In this document: one piece after another, positions 1 to 5,674 of the stretch
Position numbering within the stretch: position 1 is the first letter of the stretch
How the letters are laid out: each line of letters begins with the position of its first letter
From: Candidatus Desantisbacteria bacterium CG1_02_49_89
GTDB lineage: Bacteria > Desantisbacteria > UBA1551
Assembly (NCBI GenBank): GCA_001871075.1
Contig: MNUP01000023.1
Coordinates: 1 to 5,810 of the forward strand
Direction: 5' to 3'
DNA: 5,810 bases
Notes under the pieces: generated by a model
Databases searched by the model: none
Seen by the model: the letters and a program-made list of their open reading frames with translations, nothing else
Told to the model about the DNA's origin: nothing
Translations under genes and position numbers: made by a program

Positions 1-3000
1 AGCATGAAGCCGCGCGGTGAGTTGTCTATGCCGCCGAAACGCAGGCTGGGCACTTCCACCATAAGGGTCTGCTTGTACATGTAGATCTTGTTCGAATGCC
101 AGTGCCCGTTGAATATGGCCGCGGCGTTGTACCCGGATAATGCCTCGGTAAATTCTTTATGCTCTGCCTGGTGGAAAAGACCTATGATCTTTTTGCCGCC
201 CGGCTGCATCGCTGCGTCCTTCGCAAGCCAGGACAGCTGGGCCGCGGCGTTGGACCTGGCATCCGAATCCAGGAAAATAAAATGGCAGTTACCCCAGTCA
301 AACGAGTAATACGTCGGGGCGAGCAGGTCCTTGAAGTTCTTGCTCTGGTCCAGGCCGGTATTGTAATCGTGGTCGCCGATAACGTGGAAAACCGGCTTTG
401 TAAAACTTTCGCAGGCGCTTATGTAACCCTGGTAGTGCGCGAGGTTAGCCCCGTTCTCAGTGAGGTCTCCGGTAGCGATAGTGAACGCCGGCGCGGGCGA
501 CGCCGCGTTTATCTGCTGGATGTCTGTTTTGAACTGTGTCTCGTCAGCAGTGAGGTCCCTGCCTATGTGTATGTCCGTGACCTGGACAAAATAGAAATCC
601 GTGTCCGCTGAATCCGGGTAGCCGGTGATGCCGAAATCACGGGTCTTGGTCTCTCCGGGGGATATCTGGACCTGCCAGTAGAATTCCGTGGTCTTTATGT
701 ATCCTGACGGCATCGTTATGAAAACAAGCGCGGTCTCCGCACCGGTGAGCGTGCGTGTAATGCTGTATCGGCCGCTGTCGTCTGTCTGCACAACGCTGAT
801 CCCGTCGGATACTAACACCCCTGCGGCGCCTGTCTCTCCCGCGTCCCGCACCATGTCCGCGTCCGTATCGTAATACACCGTGCCGCCAAAGGTCCCGTAA
901 TCCCTGAAATCAACAAGGCAGGGCGAGATCTTCACGTCCTCAAAGTGCGTGTGGGACGAGCTCACCCACAGCATCGGTTCGCCGTAGGAAAAGGTATTTG
1001 CCGAGGTTGCATACCTGTTTACGCCGTTGACAAAGCAGGTCAGGGTGTTCCCTTCTGCTTTCAGCCTGAGCCTTACGGGCATGGACACACCCGTAGCAAC
1101 CGTGTACATATATATCCAGTTCCCTTCGTAGGAATAAAGCTGGACCTGGCCGTTCTTCCTGGCAAGGAGCACGTACCCGTCGTTGCTGGAAGGCTGTTTC
1201 CTTATTTGGATCCCGCCCCACCTGCCCTGGTCCCCGGCGTATACCTCTTTCACGTCCACAACAGCCTCAAGCCAGCAGTCAGCGTAGGAAATGCCTTTGA
1301 TATAGCTATAAAAAGTGCCGTTCGCAAGAGAGCTGTTAACGCTGTATTCCCCTGCCTCCGCTTCCCACATTCCGGATTTTACCGACCACATCGGCGAACC
1401 GTCCCCGCCTTCCGGGTAGAACGAGAAATCGTCCCCGAAATAAGAGACGGTCTGGCCCTCGCATACCGCGGTGACAGTGTCAGTGCCTGTCTCGGAAGAT
1501 GAAAGCACGAACGTGCATCTCCCGCTTGAATCGGTTGCCAGCGGGTTTGCCAGTATCGTGTCTGAATCCGGCCTTGACGTGTAAAGTGTGACGGTTTTGC
1601 CGCTCATCGGGAAACCGAACGTATCGTTTATAGTTACCACTATGTTTATCGTGTCAACGCTGTCCGCGACAGCGTAAAGCGGGAACGGGGTAATGAAAGA
1701 CGCCGTGTCCTTGAAAGAAGGCGCGAGGATCGATTCTGTCTGCGTGCCGCCTGCTGAACCCAAGCGCGTTACGCTGACCACCGGGGTCCCGGTGTCCGGG
1801 TCCTTGTAATAGAAGGACCCTGCTCCGGACTGCAGGCTGATGATGGTGGTGTCTGCCCAAGGATCTTTCAGGAGGGAGAACCTGCCGTTCATGGATGACG
1901 AAGAAAGGACGGCAGTGCCGGTGAACGCCTGGTTCTTGTTCCCGTAGATATCCTGGATCTCCACAGTGACCGCCGGGGACGGGTTGTTCTGGGTGGTCGC
2001 GAAAGCAGGGCTTGTTATTTTTATGACGGCATTCGGATCCACAAAATCCACGGTAGGAATACGCTTCACCCTCACGCAGTCAAACCATGCAGTCCCGACT
2101 CCGCTGTTGTGGCAGCGGTACATCAGCTGGTTGGCGGTTGATGGCACCATCCAGGTATATGCCTGCTTAGTCCAGCCTGTTGTGCCTGAAACCCCGGAAT
2201 ATGTTGCCTCCCCGATATACGTGGAGTTGTAGAACCATATAAGCCTTATATAGGAACCGCCGCTTGAAAGTTCGGTTTTAGTATGCTGGGTGCAGAGATA
2301 AGGGATATTCGGCGTGACCGGATACCTGTCAGCGTAAGAAAGCCCTGTCCATCTCGCCTCAGCGAACCTGTCAGCCGCGATCGTGGAGGTATTGCGGATA
2401 GAGCGGACTCCCATATAAACCGTGTCACCTGCCCAGGCCCACTGCCCGCCTGCCGGATTATTGAAAACCCAGTTGTTCGGGCTTGAAGTCCCTTCTTCAA
2501 ACGATGAATTGTTTATGATGTTCTCTGTGATTGTTGTCCCGTCGCACACCGCGGATACCGTGTCCCCGCCTATTATGGAGGAAACAAGGACGCTAGTGCA
2601 CATGCCGTTTGTGTCCGTTAACGCAGGCTGGGTCACGGTTGTGAACGCCAAGCCCCTGGCAGTCAGGATCGTGACCTGCCTGCCCTGCAGAGCGCTGCCG
2701 TTTTCGTCTTTCACGTATATTGAAACCGTGCAGGGAGATTTGCCGTTCGCCTGCACAACCCCTGAATTCGTCCTCAGGTACGAAGCCGTTTCGGAAACTG
2801 AAGCAGGCGCAATAAAAAATATGTTCGCCCGGGATCCATACGAGGCACTGATCTCCGCGTCGGCAAGCGCCCGGCCGTAGGTCCTTACTTCGTCAATAAA
2901 GCCTTTCAATTGCTGGTTGGGGTCCCAGCCTCCGCCGAACGCGTCCTGTTCCCCGTTTATGAACAGCCCGCCCGCGTCTATTGTAAGAGAACCGGAAGGA

Positions 3001-4157
3001 ACAGTAATGTCCGTGGAATCCAAGATCCCGTCAATATATACCTTTGTGTAGGATGTAGTTCTCACCATCGCTATGTGGTGCCACTGGTTGTCGTTTATAG
3101 CGGTTGTTCCGAGGTCAGACGCCTGACCTTTTATGTAAGGCTGGGCCCTGCCGCCGGCGAAATATGTCAGATACTCGTTAAACTGCGTGGAGTTGGCGCC
3201 GGTGATCAGGCCGAAATCCCCGTCAGAATCCTGGGTTTTGACCCAAGCTTCAGAAGTAATGTCAGTCAGGCCGTTGATCGCGGAGTTCGGCAGGCCTATT
3301 CTATCGTTCACTCCGTCATACTGCAGGCAGGAACCAAACAAGCTGTCAGCCCACACCGGACCGTTATACAATGTTCCATCATACCCGTTCCCGGATACAT
3401 CTTTCGCATCAGTGTCAAAGCACCATATTCCGGTTACGCCGTATTTATTTATGCCGCGCGTTATCGTTTTTCCGGCGCAGGCCGCGGTTATCGTGTCCTG
3501 GCCCGCGTATCCCGATCTTACGGAGAACGTGCATCTGCCCTGAGCGTCCGTGGTCTGCGGGTTCACGTACCCCCCCGCGCTGTCCAGGACCGTATCAGAA
3601 TCCCCCCTCGCGGTCTGCAGGGTAACAAGTTCATTGGCTATCGGAAAACCGAAAGTGTCATTGATAATAACAACCACCGTGCAGGCAGAGCTGTCGTCGG
3701 CAGGGACCTGATAAGGCGTGAAGAAGATAAAGGAAGCGGTTTCGTTCACTCCCTGTTCCAGCACTGATTCTGCCTGCGTGTCTGACATTAACCCCGGACG
3801 GGAACCCGTGATGACGAAACTGCCGGAAGCCGAGTTCTTAAAATAAAATATTCCTGACCCGGATGAGAGCGTTATGATCGTGGTGTCCTGCCAGTTTACC
3901 CTGTCCGCCGAGAACAGGCCGGTCACCGAACTGGCAGACAGGAAGACCGTATCGTTAAATGCCGCGTCAATGGAAGCAAGCGTGTCATCCCAAGCTTCTA
4001 TTACAATTGTGGGCGAGGGATTTCCCTGGGTGGTTGTGAACGGCAAGGAACTTAAAGCGAGGCGGTTGGCCTGTGCATATAAATTAGCTGAAGGATGAAG
4101 TATAGAAGCTGAAAGTAAAAACAAAAAGACTGACAAAACAAGATGGTTTTTTTTCAT
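1..4157 (-). CDS. Large secreted modular calcineurin-like phosphoesterase with Big_1, LamG and CBM-type domains (3' end beyond window)
   Basis: One uninterrupted frame of 1385 codons starts at the ATG at 4157-4155 and leaves the left edge without a stop. A weak GGGG Shine-Dalgarno lies four bases upstream. Residues 1-28 are a signal peptide (MKKN, hydrophobic core, cleavage near LYA|Q). Then follow: Ig-like module plus Big_1-like domain (40-232); LamG/concanavalin-like domain (about 241-441, with WHHIAMVR and GFIDEVRTYGRAL); second Big_1 (about 450-543); CBM4/9-like sandwich (about 546-702, starting INNSSFEEG); a second copy of the Ig module plus Big_1 (719-904); a LamG/DUF1080-like sandwich (about 907-1079); an SdrD-B/MetallophosN-like domain (about 1082-1180, with DTDADMVRDAGETGAAGV); and a calcineurin-like phosphoesterase (from about 1190). 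Catalytic motifs visible are D1195-x-H1197, G1230-D1231, G1261-D-H-D1264, H1329 and G-H1352-W-H1354. The Asp at 1262 replaces the usual Asn of GNH(D/E). The family hydrolyses phosphomono- or diesters with two metal ions; the substrate here is unknown. The C-terminus, where a sorting domain might lie, is not visible. Export and the phosphoesterase fold are secure; polysaccharide binding is inferred. Confidence 0.93.
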   Translation of the reverse strand, partial: MKKNHLVLSVFLFLLSASILHPSANLYAQANRLALSSLPFTTTQGNPSPTIVIEAWDDTLASIDAAFNDTVFLSASSVTGLFSADRVNWQDTTIITLSSGSGIFYFKNSASGSFVITGSRPGLMSDTQAESVLEQGVNETASFIFFTPYQVPADDSSACTVVVIINDTFGFPIANELVTLQTARGDSDTVLDSAGGYVNPQTTDAQGRCTFSVRSGYAGQDTITAACAGKTITRGINKYGVTGIWCFDTDAKDVSGNGYDGTLYNGPVWADSLFGSCLQYDGVNDRIGLPNSAINGLTDITSEAWVKTQDSDGDFGLITGANSTQFNEYLTYFAGGRAQPYIKGQASDLGTTAINDNQWHHIAMVRTTSYTKVYIDGILDSTDITVPSGSLTIDAGGLFINGEQDAFGGGWDPNQQLKGFIDEVRTYGRALADAEISASYGSRANIFFIAPASVSETASYLRTNSGVVQANGKSPCTVSIYVKDENGSALQGRQVTILTARGLAFTTVTQPALTDTNGMCTSVLVSSIIGGDTVSAVCDGTTITENIINNSSFEEGTSSPNNWVFNNPAGGQWAWAGDTVYMGVRSIRNTSTIAADRFAEARWTGLSYADRYPVTPNIPYLCTQHTKTELSSGGSYIRLIWFYNSTYIGEATYSGVSGTTGWTKQAYTWMVPSTANQLMYRCHNSGVGTAWFDCVRVKRIPTVDFVDPNAVIKITSPAFATTQNNPSPAVTVEIQDIYGNKNQAFTGTAVLSSSSMNGRFSLLKDPWADTTIISLQSGAGSFYYKDPDTGTPVVSVTRLGSAGGTQTESILAPSFKDTASFITPFPLYAVADSVDTINIVVTINDTFGFPMSGKTVTLYTSRPDSDTILANPLATDSSGRCTFVLSSSETGTDTVTAVCEGQTVSYFGDDFSFYPEGGDGSPMWSVKSGMWEAEAGEYSVNSSLANGTFYSYIKGISYADCWLEAVVDVKEVYAGDQGRWGGIQIRKQPSSNDGYVLLARKNGQVQLYSYEGNWIYMYTVATGVSMPVRLRLKAEGNTLTCFVNGVNRYATSANTFSYGEPMLWVSSSHTHFEDVKISPCLVDFRDYGTFGGTVYYDTDADMVRDAGETGAAGVLVSDGISVVQTDDSGRYSITRTLTGAETALVFITMPSGYIKTTEFYWQVQISPGETKTRDFGITGYPDSADTDFYFVQVTDIHIGRDLTADETQFKTDIQQINAASPAPAFTIATGDLTENGANLAHYQGYISACESFTKPVFHVIGDHDYNTGLDQSKNFKDLLAPTYYSFDWGNCHFIFLDSDARSNAAAQLSWLAKDAAMQPGGKKIIGLFHQAEHKEFTEALSGYNAAAIFNGHWHSNKIYMYKQTLMVEVPSLRFGGIDNSPRGFM
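1446..2003 (-). repeat. Internal duplication, copy 2 (Ig-like module + Big_1, residues 719-904)
   Basis: This is the second copy of the module found at residues 40-232. It opens with FATTQNNPSP and carries DTTIISLQSGAGSFYYKD, INDTFGFP, DSDTIL, GRCTF and AVCEGQTV in the same order and spacing. It lacks the first Cys of copy 1 (Thr-Ile-Asn where copy 1 has Ser-Ala-Cys-Thr) but keeps the later two. It leads directly into the third beta-sandwich of the protein. The copies share protein sequence more clearly than DNA, so the duplication is not recent. Confidence 0.85.
3462..4040 (-). repeat. Internal duplication, copy 1 (Ig-like module + Big_1, residues 40-232)
   Basis: This stretch of the large protein matches residues 719-904 along its length. 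Shared landmarks in order are F-x-TTQ-x-NPSP, DTTII-x-L-S/Q-SG-x-G-x-FY, TQ-x-ES, a TASFI block, INDTFGFP, DSDT-x-L, GRCTF and the C-x-G-x-T-I/V end. The second half (from about residue 150) looks like a Big_1/invasin-type Ig domain. It holds Cys before the first long strand (SSAC), in GRC, and in AAC, so a disulfide is possible in the exported protein. Copies are separated by a LamG domain, another Big_1 and a CBM-like domain, so this is a dispersed duplication rather than a simple tandem one. Confidence 0.85.
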
Positions 4158-4496: not shown

Positions 4497-4549
4497 TGAT
4501 AATCTGTGTCGATCTGAGTCTAATTTTATTTCGTGCTTTCGTACTTTCC

Positions 4550-4598
4550 TCGCCCATCCTTTCAGGTGGGCGAAGTCTCGCCCGCTGAAAGACGGGCG
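4550..4598. repeat. Four-armed GC-rich inverted repeat with alternative folds
   Basis: Four arms lie in a row: A TCGCCCA 4550-4556, B TGGGCGA 4567-4573, C TCGCCCG 4578-4584 and D CGGGCG 4593-4598. A pairs with B and C pairs with D as two hairpins. B also pairs with C in one longer hairpin (4559-4573 with 4578-4591, 14 pairs including one wobble, one bulge, four-base loop). It begins 26 bp after the barrel gene's stop codon on the minus strand. There is no U-run after it, so it is not a standard intrinsic terminator; mRNA protection or a mobile repeat of the REP kind is possible. Confidence 0.7.
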
Positions 4599-4623
4599 GA
4601 GTGATTTCGTGGTAAGATTGTCT

Positions 4624-5661
4624 TTACTTGATGCGCAGCGTCATCCCGACGCGGTGCGTGCCTCCCGTGCCTTCGATCCCGCTCAGGGAATACATGAACG
4701 CGTAATCGAACTGATACATGAACGGGCCGCTGAGCGGCATAAGAAGGTAGCTTGCACCTATGGATATCTGCGAATAGCGCCTGCTCCCGAAAGCAAAGCC
4801 GCCGCGGATCCCGATCGGTAATTCAGTCATCCACCACTCAACTCCGAGGTTCAGGTTATAATCGTAGTTGCGCGTTGTGAGGTCGCCCAGTATGCGGAAC
4901 TCGCCCAGCTCGTATTTCGCCCCGACCTTTATGCTCATCGGCACAGGGCTGGGATCTTTCAGGCCCATGTTGGGCTGGTTGAAATCCTTCAAGCAGAAAC
5001 CGATGCGCAGTTTTTCGTCGATGTCGAACAGAACGCCAAGGTCAAGCCCGACCCCCACCACTGAGGTTCCCTTGTCGAAAACCGGGTCGGACGTGCCGCC
5101 TTCTTCCCACAAAATCCCACCCAGGTTCTCATCGTAGGTCCACAGCGTTGGCGAATAAGCCAGCTGCAGTATCTTGAAATTAGCCCCGACGTAAATGCCT
5201 TCCCTGAGCTTTCGGCCGTACGAAACGATGAACGAGTTTTCGCTGTAGATATTGGACGCCTGGCGGTTCAGCCACATCCCGCCGATAGTGCCGCCTATTT
5301 TGTCCGGAAGAGGATGCACGTAACCGATGAACATATCCCCGAGGTTCGTCTTTCCGGTCGGGTAGTCAAGGCCCGGGTAAAGCGCTGCGTATGAAAAACC
5401 TACTTCCTTCTCAAACAGCTGGCCGACGCCTGCAGGGTTGTAATACATGGCAAGCGCATCATCCGCAAGCCCGGTGAACGCATTTCCCATCCCCTGAGCC
5501 CTCGGACCAAGGCCTATATCCAGGTATGACGCCTCGCACAAAGAAGGTGAAAGGTGAAAGGTGAAAGGTGAAAGCACAAAAGATATTATAATAAGGAATA
5601 ATATATTATATATCTTCTGGCTTTTCCCTTTACACGTAACACGTGACACGTTACACGTCAT
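4624..5661 (-). CDS. PorV/PorQ-family outer-membrane beta-barrel protein
   Basis: This complete gene encodes 345 residues. I take the ATG at 5661-5659 as the start because AGAGG lies eight bases upstream; a GTG at 5670-5668 in the same frame overlaps that ribosome site and is unlikely. Residues 1-44 look like a signal peptide: basic KGKSQK, hydrophobic INILFLIIISFVL-type core at 17-30, and a cleavage after CEA before SYLDIG. The Cys at 42 lacks a lipobox. The mature start (GLGPRAQGMGNAFTGLADD, then YYNPAGV at 73-79) is the hallmark of the PorV/PorQ (UPF0164) group, distant relatives of FadL-type barrels. The rest alternates glycine- and aromatic-rich amphipathic strands, as in a barrel. PorV itself is the shuttle/attachment component of the type IX secretion system, while many paralogs have no assigned role, so I give no gene symbol. 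The final residue is Lys, not the usual aromatic. The start of the gene contains two heptamer arrays. Confidence 0.88.
   Translation of the reverse strand: MTCNVSRVTCKGKSQKIYNILFLIIISFVLSPFTFHLSPSLCEASYLDIGLGPRAQGMGNAFTGLADDALAMYYNPAGVGQLFEKEVGFSYAALYPGLDYPTGKTNLGDMFIGYVHPLPDKIGGTIGGMWLNRQASNIYSENSFIVSYGRKLREGIYVGANFKILQLAYSPTLWTYDENLGGILWEEGGTSDPVFDKGTSVVGVGLDLGVLFDIDEKLRIGFCLKDFNQPNMGLKDPSPVPMSIKVGAKYELGEFRILGDLTTRNYDYNLNLGVEWWMTELPIGIRGGFAFGSRRYSQISIGASYLLMPLSGPFMYQFDYAFMYSLSGIEGTGGTHRVGMTLRIK
5546..5573 (-). repeat. Perfect heptanucleotide tandem repeat (TTTCACC)x4 inside the signal-peptide code
   Basis: Four exact copies of GGTGAAA on the plus strand (TTTCACC on the coding strand) lie within codons 30-39 of the barrel gene and encode SPFTFHLSP. 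Since seven is not a multiple of three, loss or gain of one unit would shift the reading frame between the start codon and the mature barrel. Confidence 0.9.
5632..5659 (-). repeat. Second heptamer array, ACACGTN x4, abutting the start codon
   Basis: Units on the plus strand are ACACGTA, ACACGTG, ACACGTT and ACACGTC: six fixed bases and a seventh that differs in every copy. The last unit overlaps the start codon of the barrel gene, so the array encodes residues 2-10 (TCNVSRVTC). It has the same period and copy number as the TTTCACC array 58 bp away. The CACGTG core in the second unit is palindromic. Confidence 0.85.
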
Positions 5662-5669
5662 TTTAATCA

Positions 5670-5674
5670 CCTCT
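5670..5674 (-). promoter_or_regulatory. Ribosome-binding site of the PorV/PorQ-like gene
   Basis: The minus strand reads AGAGG followed by eight bases and then ATG at 5661. This spacing decides the start: the in-frame GTG at 5670-5668 lies within the site itself. The site falls in the 19 bp gap after the upstream gene, which fits translation from one mRNA. Confidence 0.75.

Follow-up and report, generated by a model that had tools for sequence, protein, structure and literature searches.

The 5,810-nucleotide stretch of DNA analysed here (the window) contains the 5' part of a gene from an uncultured bacterium that is probably diderm, and the gene encodes a secreted protein of giant size. With moderate confidence, this protein is read as an exported phosphodiesterase that binds glycans and cuts an external phosphodiester substrate, in which a stalk of repeated domains holds catalytic cassettes and whose gene continues into another contig of the same assembly, C91. 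The source genome amounts to 2.48 Mb in 150 contigs and is 93.5% complete; the window corresponds to bases 1–5810 of contig C28 (7,641 bases). The gene lies on the minus strand (3..4157), as do all domains given below, and starts with an ATG at 4157; ahead of it lies a purine-rich stretch resembling a ribosome-binding site. Its frame covers 1385 residues without a stop and runs off the contig at bases 1–3. A probable Sec signal peptide, read from the translation by eye, occupies about residues 1–29 (4071..4157) and is followed by the order A, Big_1, LamG, Big_1, CBM4/9-type, A, Big_1, DUF1080-type sandwich, MetallophosN and Metallophos. Plus-strand frames of up to 285 aa opposite the window genes were given no weight.

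Immunoglobulin-like domains recur along the chain. Three stretches match Big_1 (PF02369; 1.4e-31 in all, 108.9 bits in Pfam), at residues 139–235 (3453..3743; local HMM 6e-33), 456–543 (2529..2792; 4e-30) and 817–904 (1446..1709; 1e-29, best Pfam stretch 829–903). A further Ig-like domain, termed A, was detected by local HMM in two copies, at residues 31–138 (3744..4067; alternatively delimited as 33–144) and at residues 712–822 (1692..2024; 5e-37). The second copy forms a beta sandwich in its AlphaFold model and has no Pfam match when searched alone. Domain A directly precedes two of the three Big_1 domains.

Each Big_1 domain leads straight into a different sandwich. The first, of LamG type (aa 240–443; 2829..3440), is matched by Pfam Laminin_G_3 over residues 281–437 (2e-18; 67.4 bits against a cut-off of 27.6) and by a PDB profile, with the S-layer-domain protein 4qvs at 3.8e-6. 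The second (aa 552–717; 2007..2504) is a jelly roll of the CBM4/9/16/22/70 type that lacks a Pfam match when searched alone. Its AlphaFold model (pLDDT about 60–95, mostly 80–95) aligns with CBM70, CBM16, CBM4-2 and CBM22 at Z values of 12.7–14.6 over about 135–149 residues in VIA-align, the best being 14.6 to 4d0q, 14.2 to CBM16 and 13.7 to CBM4-2. A PDB profile (4e-8) points the same way, and a paralogue of this sandwich is matched by Pfam CBM_4_9. The third sandwich, S3 (aa 906–1088; 894..1442), also without a Pfam match when searched alone, is assigned to the DUF1080 or 3-keto-disaccharide-hydrolase type entirely by way of its paralogues, because it is unfolded in the five-domain AlphaFold model (pLDDT below 50). 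Specifically, an HMM of S3 matches the C71 protein at 1.3e-6, the C71 paralogue segment is PF06439 (DUF1080, 3keto-disac_hyd; 2.4e-7, 31.4 bits against a cut-off of 26.8), and hhalign relates the third sandwich to the copies in C91 and C58 with a probability of 90. An N-terminal sandwich of Caldithrix was rejected as a homologue of the third sandwich, hhalign giving only 10% against the paralogue copies. Foldseek searches with the five-domain model returned mostly generic Ig rods and were left out of the family claims. The LamG, CBM4/9 and DUF1080-like classes are all supported, and sandwiches of these types may bind glycans, a property that the fold itself does not prove.

The sandwiches are followed by a MetallophosN domain (SdrD_B-like; aa 1089–1185; 603..893; pLDDT 89–97) and a Metallophos catalytic domain (aa 1186–1385; 3..602), adjacent, in that order and both above cut-off. 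Pfam places PF16371 at residues 1106–1163 (1.9e-10; 41.2 bits, cut-off 35.6) and PF00149 at residues 1190–1355 (7.8e-7; 30.2 bits, cut-off 21.5), and motif alignment and Foldseek also identify the catalytic domain. The motif residues are D1195/H1197, D1231, G1261-D-H-D1264, H1329 and H1352/H1354; all five metal motifs (DxH, GD, GNHD/E, H, GHxH) are in place, except that GDHD stands for GNHD. The model of the catalytic domain (pLDDT 89, with the last 13 residues poorly modelled and the C-terminus missing) matches Rv0805 at 2e-10, GpdQ at 1.8e-8 (rmsd 3.4) and also purple acid phosphatases in Foldseek, and a PDB sequence profile retrieves the same proteins at about 1e-13. The active site is predicted to be dinuclear for metal, as in the Rv0805/GpdQ class. 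Because GDHD replaces GNHD, a metal-ligand Asn being Asp in the window protein, phosphoesterase activity cannot be taken for granted; no named relative has GDHD. In the PQQ-type subfamily the Asn varies, since six members (L089, L092, L093, L094, L116 and L130) have GGHD.

The preliminary description had proposed a giant surface phosphoesterase, and a giant secreted phosphoesterase is indeed supported. The domain map agrees with its three Big_1 domains running directly into different sandwiches, and its LamG, CBM4/9-like and DUF1080-like calls held up on the evidence above. Every domain it named stands, but it missed the two A domains. It also let the chain end in MetallophosN plus a phosphoesterase: both domains are present, but the end is that of the contig, because base 1 of the window is base 1 of C28 and the assembly holds no sequence to its left.

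The stalk is a genome-wide building material. A search of the genome with the window protein returned 37 matches, on the window contig and seven others, and modules were mapped with HMMs made from window segments in the family proteins of this genome and in one genome of the same order. Big_1 is followed at once by a sandwich in 48 of 49 cases (26 LamG, 17 CBM4/9-type and 5 DUF1080-type), the remaining one leading into a C-terminal domain, CT; for three of the five DUF1080-type cases (one in C91, two in C58), the class was assigned from position, similarity of sequence and Pfam, not from the HMM. Domain A, with 55 copies in the family by local HMM, stands directly before 36 of the 49 Big_1 domains. 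The same unit makes up the stalks of at least seven further long proteins, encoded on C21, C58, C91, C138, C116, C72 and C10. Their cargo includes a WbsX/GH99-like domain (C21), NPCBM with GH20 (C58), GDPD (C91) and SBBP propeller repeats (C10); the pieces on C72, C138 and C116 hold no known enzyme in their assembled part, C138 and C116 being incomplete. The C150 protein combines a weak Metallophos match with CT and has no Big_1.

Where paralogues carry enzymes, these are internal to the chain, and modules of the same kinds resume behind them. The phosphoesterase had been envisaged at the end of its stalk, a position abandoned here as the product of a contig edge; very probably the modules of the window gene likewise continue behind it. 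The stalk itself is real, but it is not special to the phosphoesterase, being a repeat common to many long proteins of the genome.

Several observations concern the neighbourhood and condition of these genes. Directly beside the C72 stalk protein lies a 941-aa protein with CBM60 and a WbsX/GH99-like domain (L031:4931-7756). The giant genes on C116 (L030:3-8388) and C138 (L029:1-14763) look split between two module-bearing frames by a stop codon or a short gap, as frameshifts, assembly errors or decay would produce. An intergenic element of about 75 bases (window 4536-4615) is 95–96% identical to stretches on C58 (3847-3922) and C91 (8784-8862) and is a dispersed repeat near several giant genes.

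Wherever a Big_1-bearing protein is assembled to its 3' end, it finishes in CT, a domain of about 135 residues ending KGLRWR...IRFRVRVK, and nearly all of these proteins have one to three A domains ahead of it. CT is 76–95% identical among C21, C58, C91 and C138 (the C138 copy is partial), and the last A is up to 91% identical among the same proteins; the median identity of module copies at large is 28–39%. CT resembles DUF11 weakly and matches DUF11-like models only. Among 241 genomes it scores strongly only in this genome and one same-order relative, and a genome scan with CT returned no named relative. Comparison with the known type IX secretion (T9SS) signals TIGR04183, TIGR04131, PF18962 and PF13585 in Pfam and NCBIfam gave no match. 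A second CT-bearing protein (L177:4042-6096; 684 aa) has a weak Metallophos match, at 0.0004 just under cut-off, and may be a further phosphoesterase of the surface that shares this C-terminal domain.

The immediate upstream neighbour in the window is a PorV/PorQ-like outer-membrane protein (4624..5670, minus strand; NCBIfam PorV_fam 1.5e-17, under cut-off). Beyond it, on the same strand, come a CHU_C type IX signal protein and then, outside the window, a small DUF11 protein. This trio of small DUF11, CHU_C and PorV-like genes occurs on the window contig and on C140 (L178), adjoining CT-bearing proteins. Elsewhere in the genome, a 1659-aa SprA-like protein (L075:358-5337) matches TIGR04189 at 1.5e-50, scores 171.6 bits where the cut-off is 200, and is collinear with the SprA model but shorter than its 2319 positions, which makes it a candidate for a divergent type IX translocon. 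TIGR04189 was used for this test after SprA_N (PF14349), matched nowhere and hence uninformative. Together, the SprA-like protein and the PorV-like neighbours suggest a T9SS-like export route.

MetallophosN proteins are normally much shorter than the window protein, as had been expected. Matches over cut-off in 290 genomes lie in open frames of 431–757 aa, apart from one 174-aa fragment. A scan of named genomes with the phosphoesterase found 161 relatives, of which 80 were kept; the 77 named relatives with complete frames have a median length of 588 aa and a maximum of 1,507 aa. Local HMMs found the A, Big_1, LamG and CBM modules absent from all 80, and the search for the same domain order, proposed in the preliminary description, found none among them. 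Those closest to the window protein come from Caldithrix, Sumerlaeota and Chloroflexota and are of the MetallophosN-Metallophos-PQQ type, and in 12 of the 15 closest named relatives a PQQ propeller lies behind the phosphoesterase. Open-access papers yielded no literature on MetallophosN function.

This propeller provides the link to the missing 3' half, since C91 opens in mid-gene with LWTFNIGVPVASSPAVTGNALYVGAYDGNVYAF, an in-frame stretch that begins at base 2 and lacks a start. The opening gives a 33-residue ungapped match to the last PQQ blade of L090 and L087, with a score of 124, compared with at most 44 for shuffled sequences and 31 for the other open contig, C72. Its three best matches (124, 124 and 121) all fall in MetallophosN-Metallophos-PQQ loci, the third being the PQQ half of a split gene in L091, and among the remaining PQQ proteins of the genome the top score is 83. 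After the last blade, C91 continues with Big_1-LamG-GDPD and ends in A-A-CT; the GDPD motifs HRG..PENT, ELDV and HD are intact. Codon GC3 is 0.66 in C28, 0.62 in C91 and 0.46 in C72. Other candidates for the 3' part were rejected: C94, C17 and C19, all with PQQ blades, have their own gene starts or an internal blade, and C72 has no propeller match and the deviating GC3. On this sequence evidence, the window gene very likely joins C91. Bases 1–200 of the window overlap no other contig, no read overlap links C28 with C91, and the piece between them is on no other contig of the assembly. Because no sequence overlap joins the two, the full-length protein is a reconstruction: from the relatives, the gap is estimated at about 390–490 codons, and the whole protein would probably have about 4,250 aa and two phosphodiesterase domains. 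With B for Big_1, its order would be signal - A-B-LamG - B-CBM - A-B-S3 - MetallophosN-Metallophos-[PQQ] in the first half and B-LamG - GDPD - B-CBM - A-B-S3 - B-LamG - A-B-LamG - A-A-CT in the C91 half.

In the proposed mechanism, the protein would be exported by Sec and then cross the outer membrane by a type IX-like route, with CT perhaps holding it at the surface. The repeating unit A - Big_1 - sandwich would act as a spacer between the cell and the catalytic cassettes, its Ig domains forming a rod that presents the LamG, CBM and DUF1080-type sandwiches for glycan contact. One cassette would be the metallophosphoesterase of the MetallophosN-Metallophos-PQQ type; C91 would add the end of the PQQ propeller, the GDPD, more stalk units and the shared A-A-CT end. 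The metallophosphoesterase and, if joined, the GDPD would then cut phosphodiesters in the bound material, either glycerophosphodiesters or a phosphorylated glycan, with release of phosphate or glycerol phosphate.

The identity of the substrate is the point at which a serious alternative has to be weighed. Relatives of the GpdQ, Rv0805 and GDPD kinds have small glycerophosphodiesters or cyclic nucleotides as substrates. The protein might thus scavenge phosphate from phospholipid headgroups or nucleotides instead of a glycan polymer, the sandwiches only anchoring the cell to particles, and this is a real though lesser possibility, with small glycerophosphodiesters as the substrate. It draws on the fold match to GpdQ and Rv0805, and it fits a genome that makes no TagF-type polymer: a search that finds TagF-like polymerases in three control genomes finds none here, so a teichoic-like polymer target would be foreign. 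A giant stalk resembling glycan binders would, however, be costly for small soluble substrates, and other enzymes of the family (WbsX/GH99-like, GH20) are glycan-directed. In Bacillus subtilis, the exo-acting GDPD enzyme GlpQ and the endo-acting PhoD together degrade wall teichoic acid (PMC7086022). By analogy with this pair, the GDPD on the probable 3' half lends some weight to the earlier idea of a phosphorylated extracellular polymer.

It is unlikely that the protein is mainly an adhesin or a surface-layer-like structure in which the enzyme domains ride along as passengers with little or no activity. Such a role would suit Big_1 and A domains that fold like those of invasin and intimin, stalk units that vastly outnumber the enzymes, and the three pieces without a known enzyme in their assembled part; GDHD may also suggest a weak or inactive enzyme. 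Yet all other catalytic residues are kept, the GDPD is intact, and several paralogues carry known enzymes (WbsX, GH20, GDPD), many for mere passengers. Least probable is a gene complete but for a short tail, with the phosphoesterase as its end or only a PQQ propeller behind it and C91 as another gene: the two contigs do not overlap and the free-standing relatives do end with their propeller, but whatever precedes C91 must close with just this type of propeller, which no other contig offers, CT terminates the paralogues that are assembled to their 3' end, and the GC3 of C28 and C91 agrees.

Beyond the preferred reading of a stalk-borne, glycan-binding phosphodiesterase, a broader picture can be drawn tentatively, though it is rather doubtful in full: an interchangeable-enzyme surface system with one stalk, a constant A-A-CT sorting or anchoring cassette (a new T9SS-type or T9SS-like signal) and swapped enzymes, whose window member, of about 4,250 residues with a metallo-type and a GDPD phosphodiesterase, would strip phosphate from the glycopolymer of other organisms. 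In this lineage, represented by one same-order comparison genome, an array of giant surface enzymes may arise through repetition of a single scaffold that serves as a natural plug-in chassis. In the genomes searched, CT scores strongly in this order alone, and it is a candidate signal of a new kind for sorting or anchoring. If the C91 join is true, a metallophosphodiesterase and a GDPD share one chain, and the fate of phosphorylated polymers in the environment would become directly testable with a single protein.

Comparison with known systems places the novelty in the assembly of the parts. The MetallophosN-Metallophos-PQQ proteins (L087 from Caldithrix sp., L088 and L090 from Sumerlaeota, L089 from Chloroflexota, L073 and L074) share the domain order and 31–40% identity with the window protein, and the closest members also share its conserved end around RFGGIDxSPxGF. 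A PQQ propeller follows their phosphoesterase, as it would in the window protein, but they are free-standing proteins of 680–1,100 aa without A, Big_1, LamG or CBM units (local HMM), and have GNHD or GGHD instead of GDHD. Bacteroidota-type phosphoesterases share the MetallophosN and Metallophos domains but mostly measure about 470–600 aa, without stalk or propeller. The GpdQ/Rv0805 class has the same catalytic fold and metal motifs in compact single-domain enzymes of about 270–330 aa, without stalk or binding modules. Invasin and intimin stalks resemble the window protein in Big_1 fold and rod role; here, in contrast, a sandwich of LamG, CBM or DUF1080 type follows Big_1 almost without exception, enzymes are built in, and no intimin beta-barrel is seen in the assembled part of the window protein. 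Multimodular CBM exoenzymes, such as the S-layer associated endoglucanase from which CBM16 derives, also combine several binding and catalytic modules in one secreted chain, whereas the window family has a constant A-Big_1-sandwich triad, a shared A-A-CT end and phosphodiesterase cargo. GlpQ and PhoD of B. subtilis likewise direct a GDPD-type exo enzyme and a second phosphodiesterase at one polymer (PMC7086022), but as two separate proteins in place of what is probably one chain here, an analogy for which no homology is claimed. The open-access literature yielded no description of giant proteins of the A-Big_1-sandwich build. The parts are known; new with respect to that literature are their combination, the rule-like A-Big_1-sandwich unit, its recurrence alongside different enzymes, and CT as the constant end.
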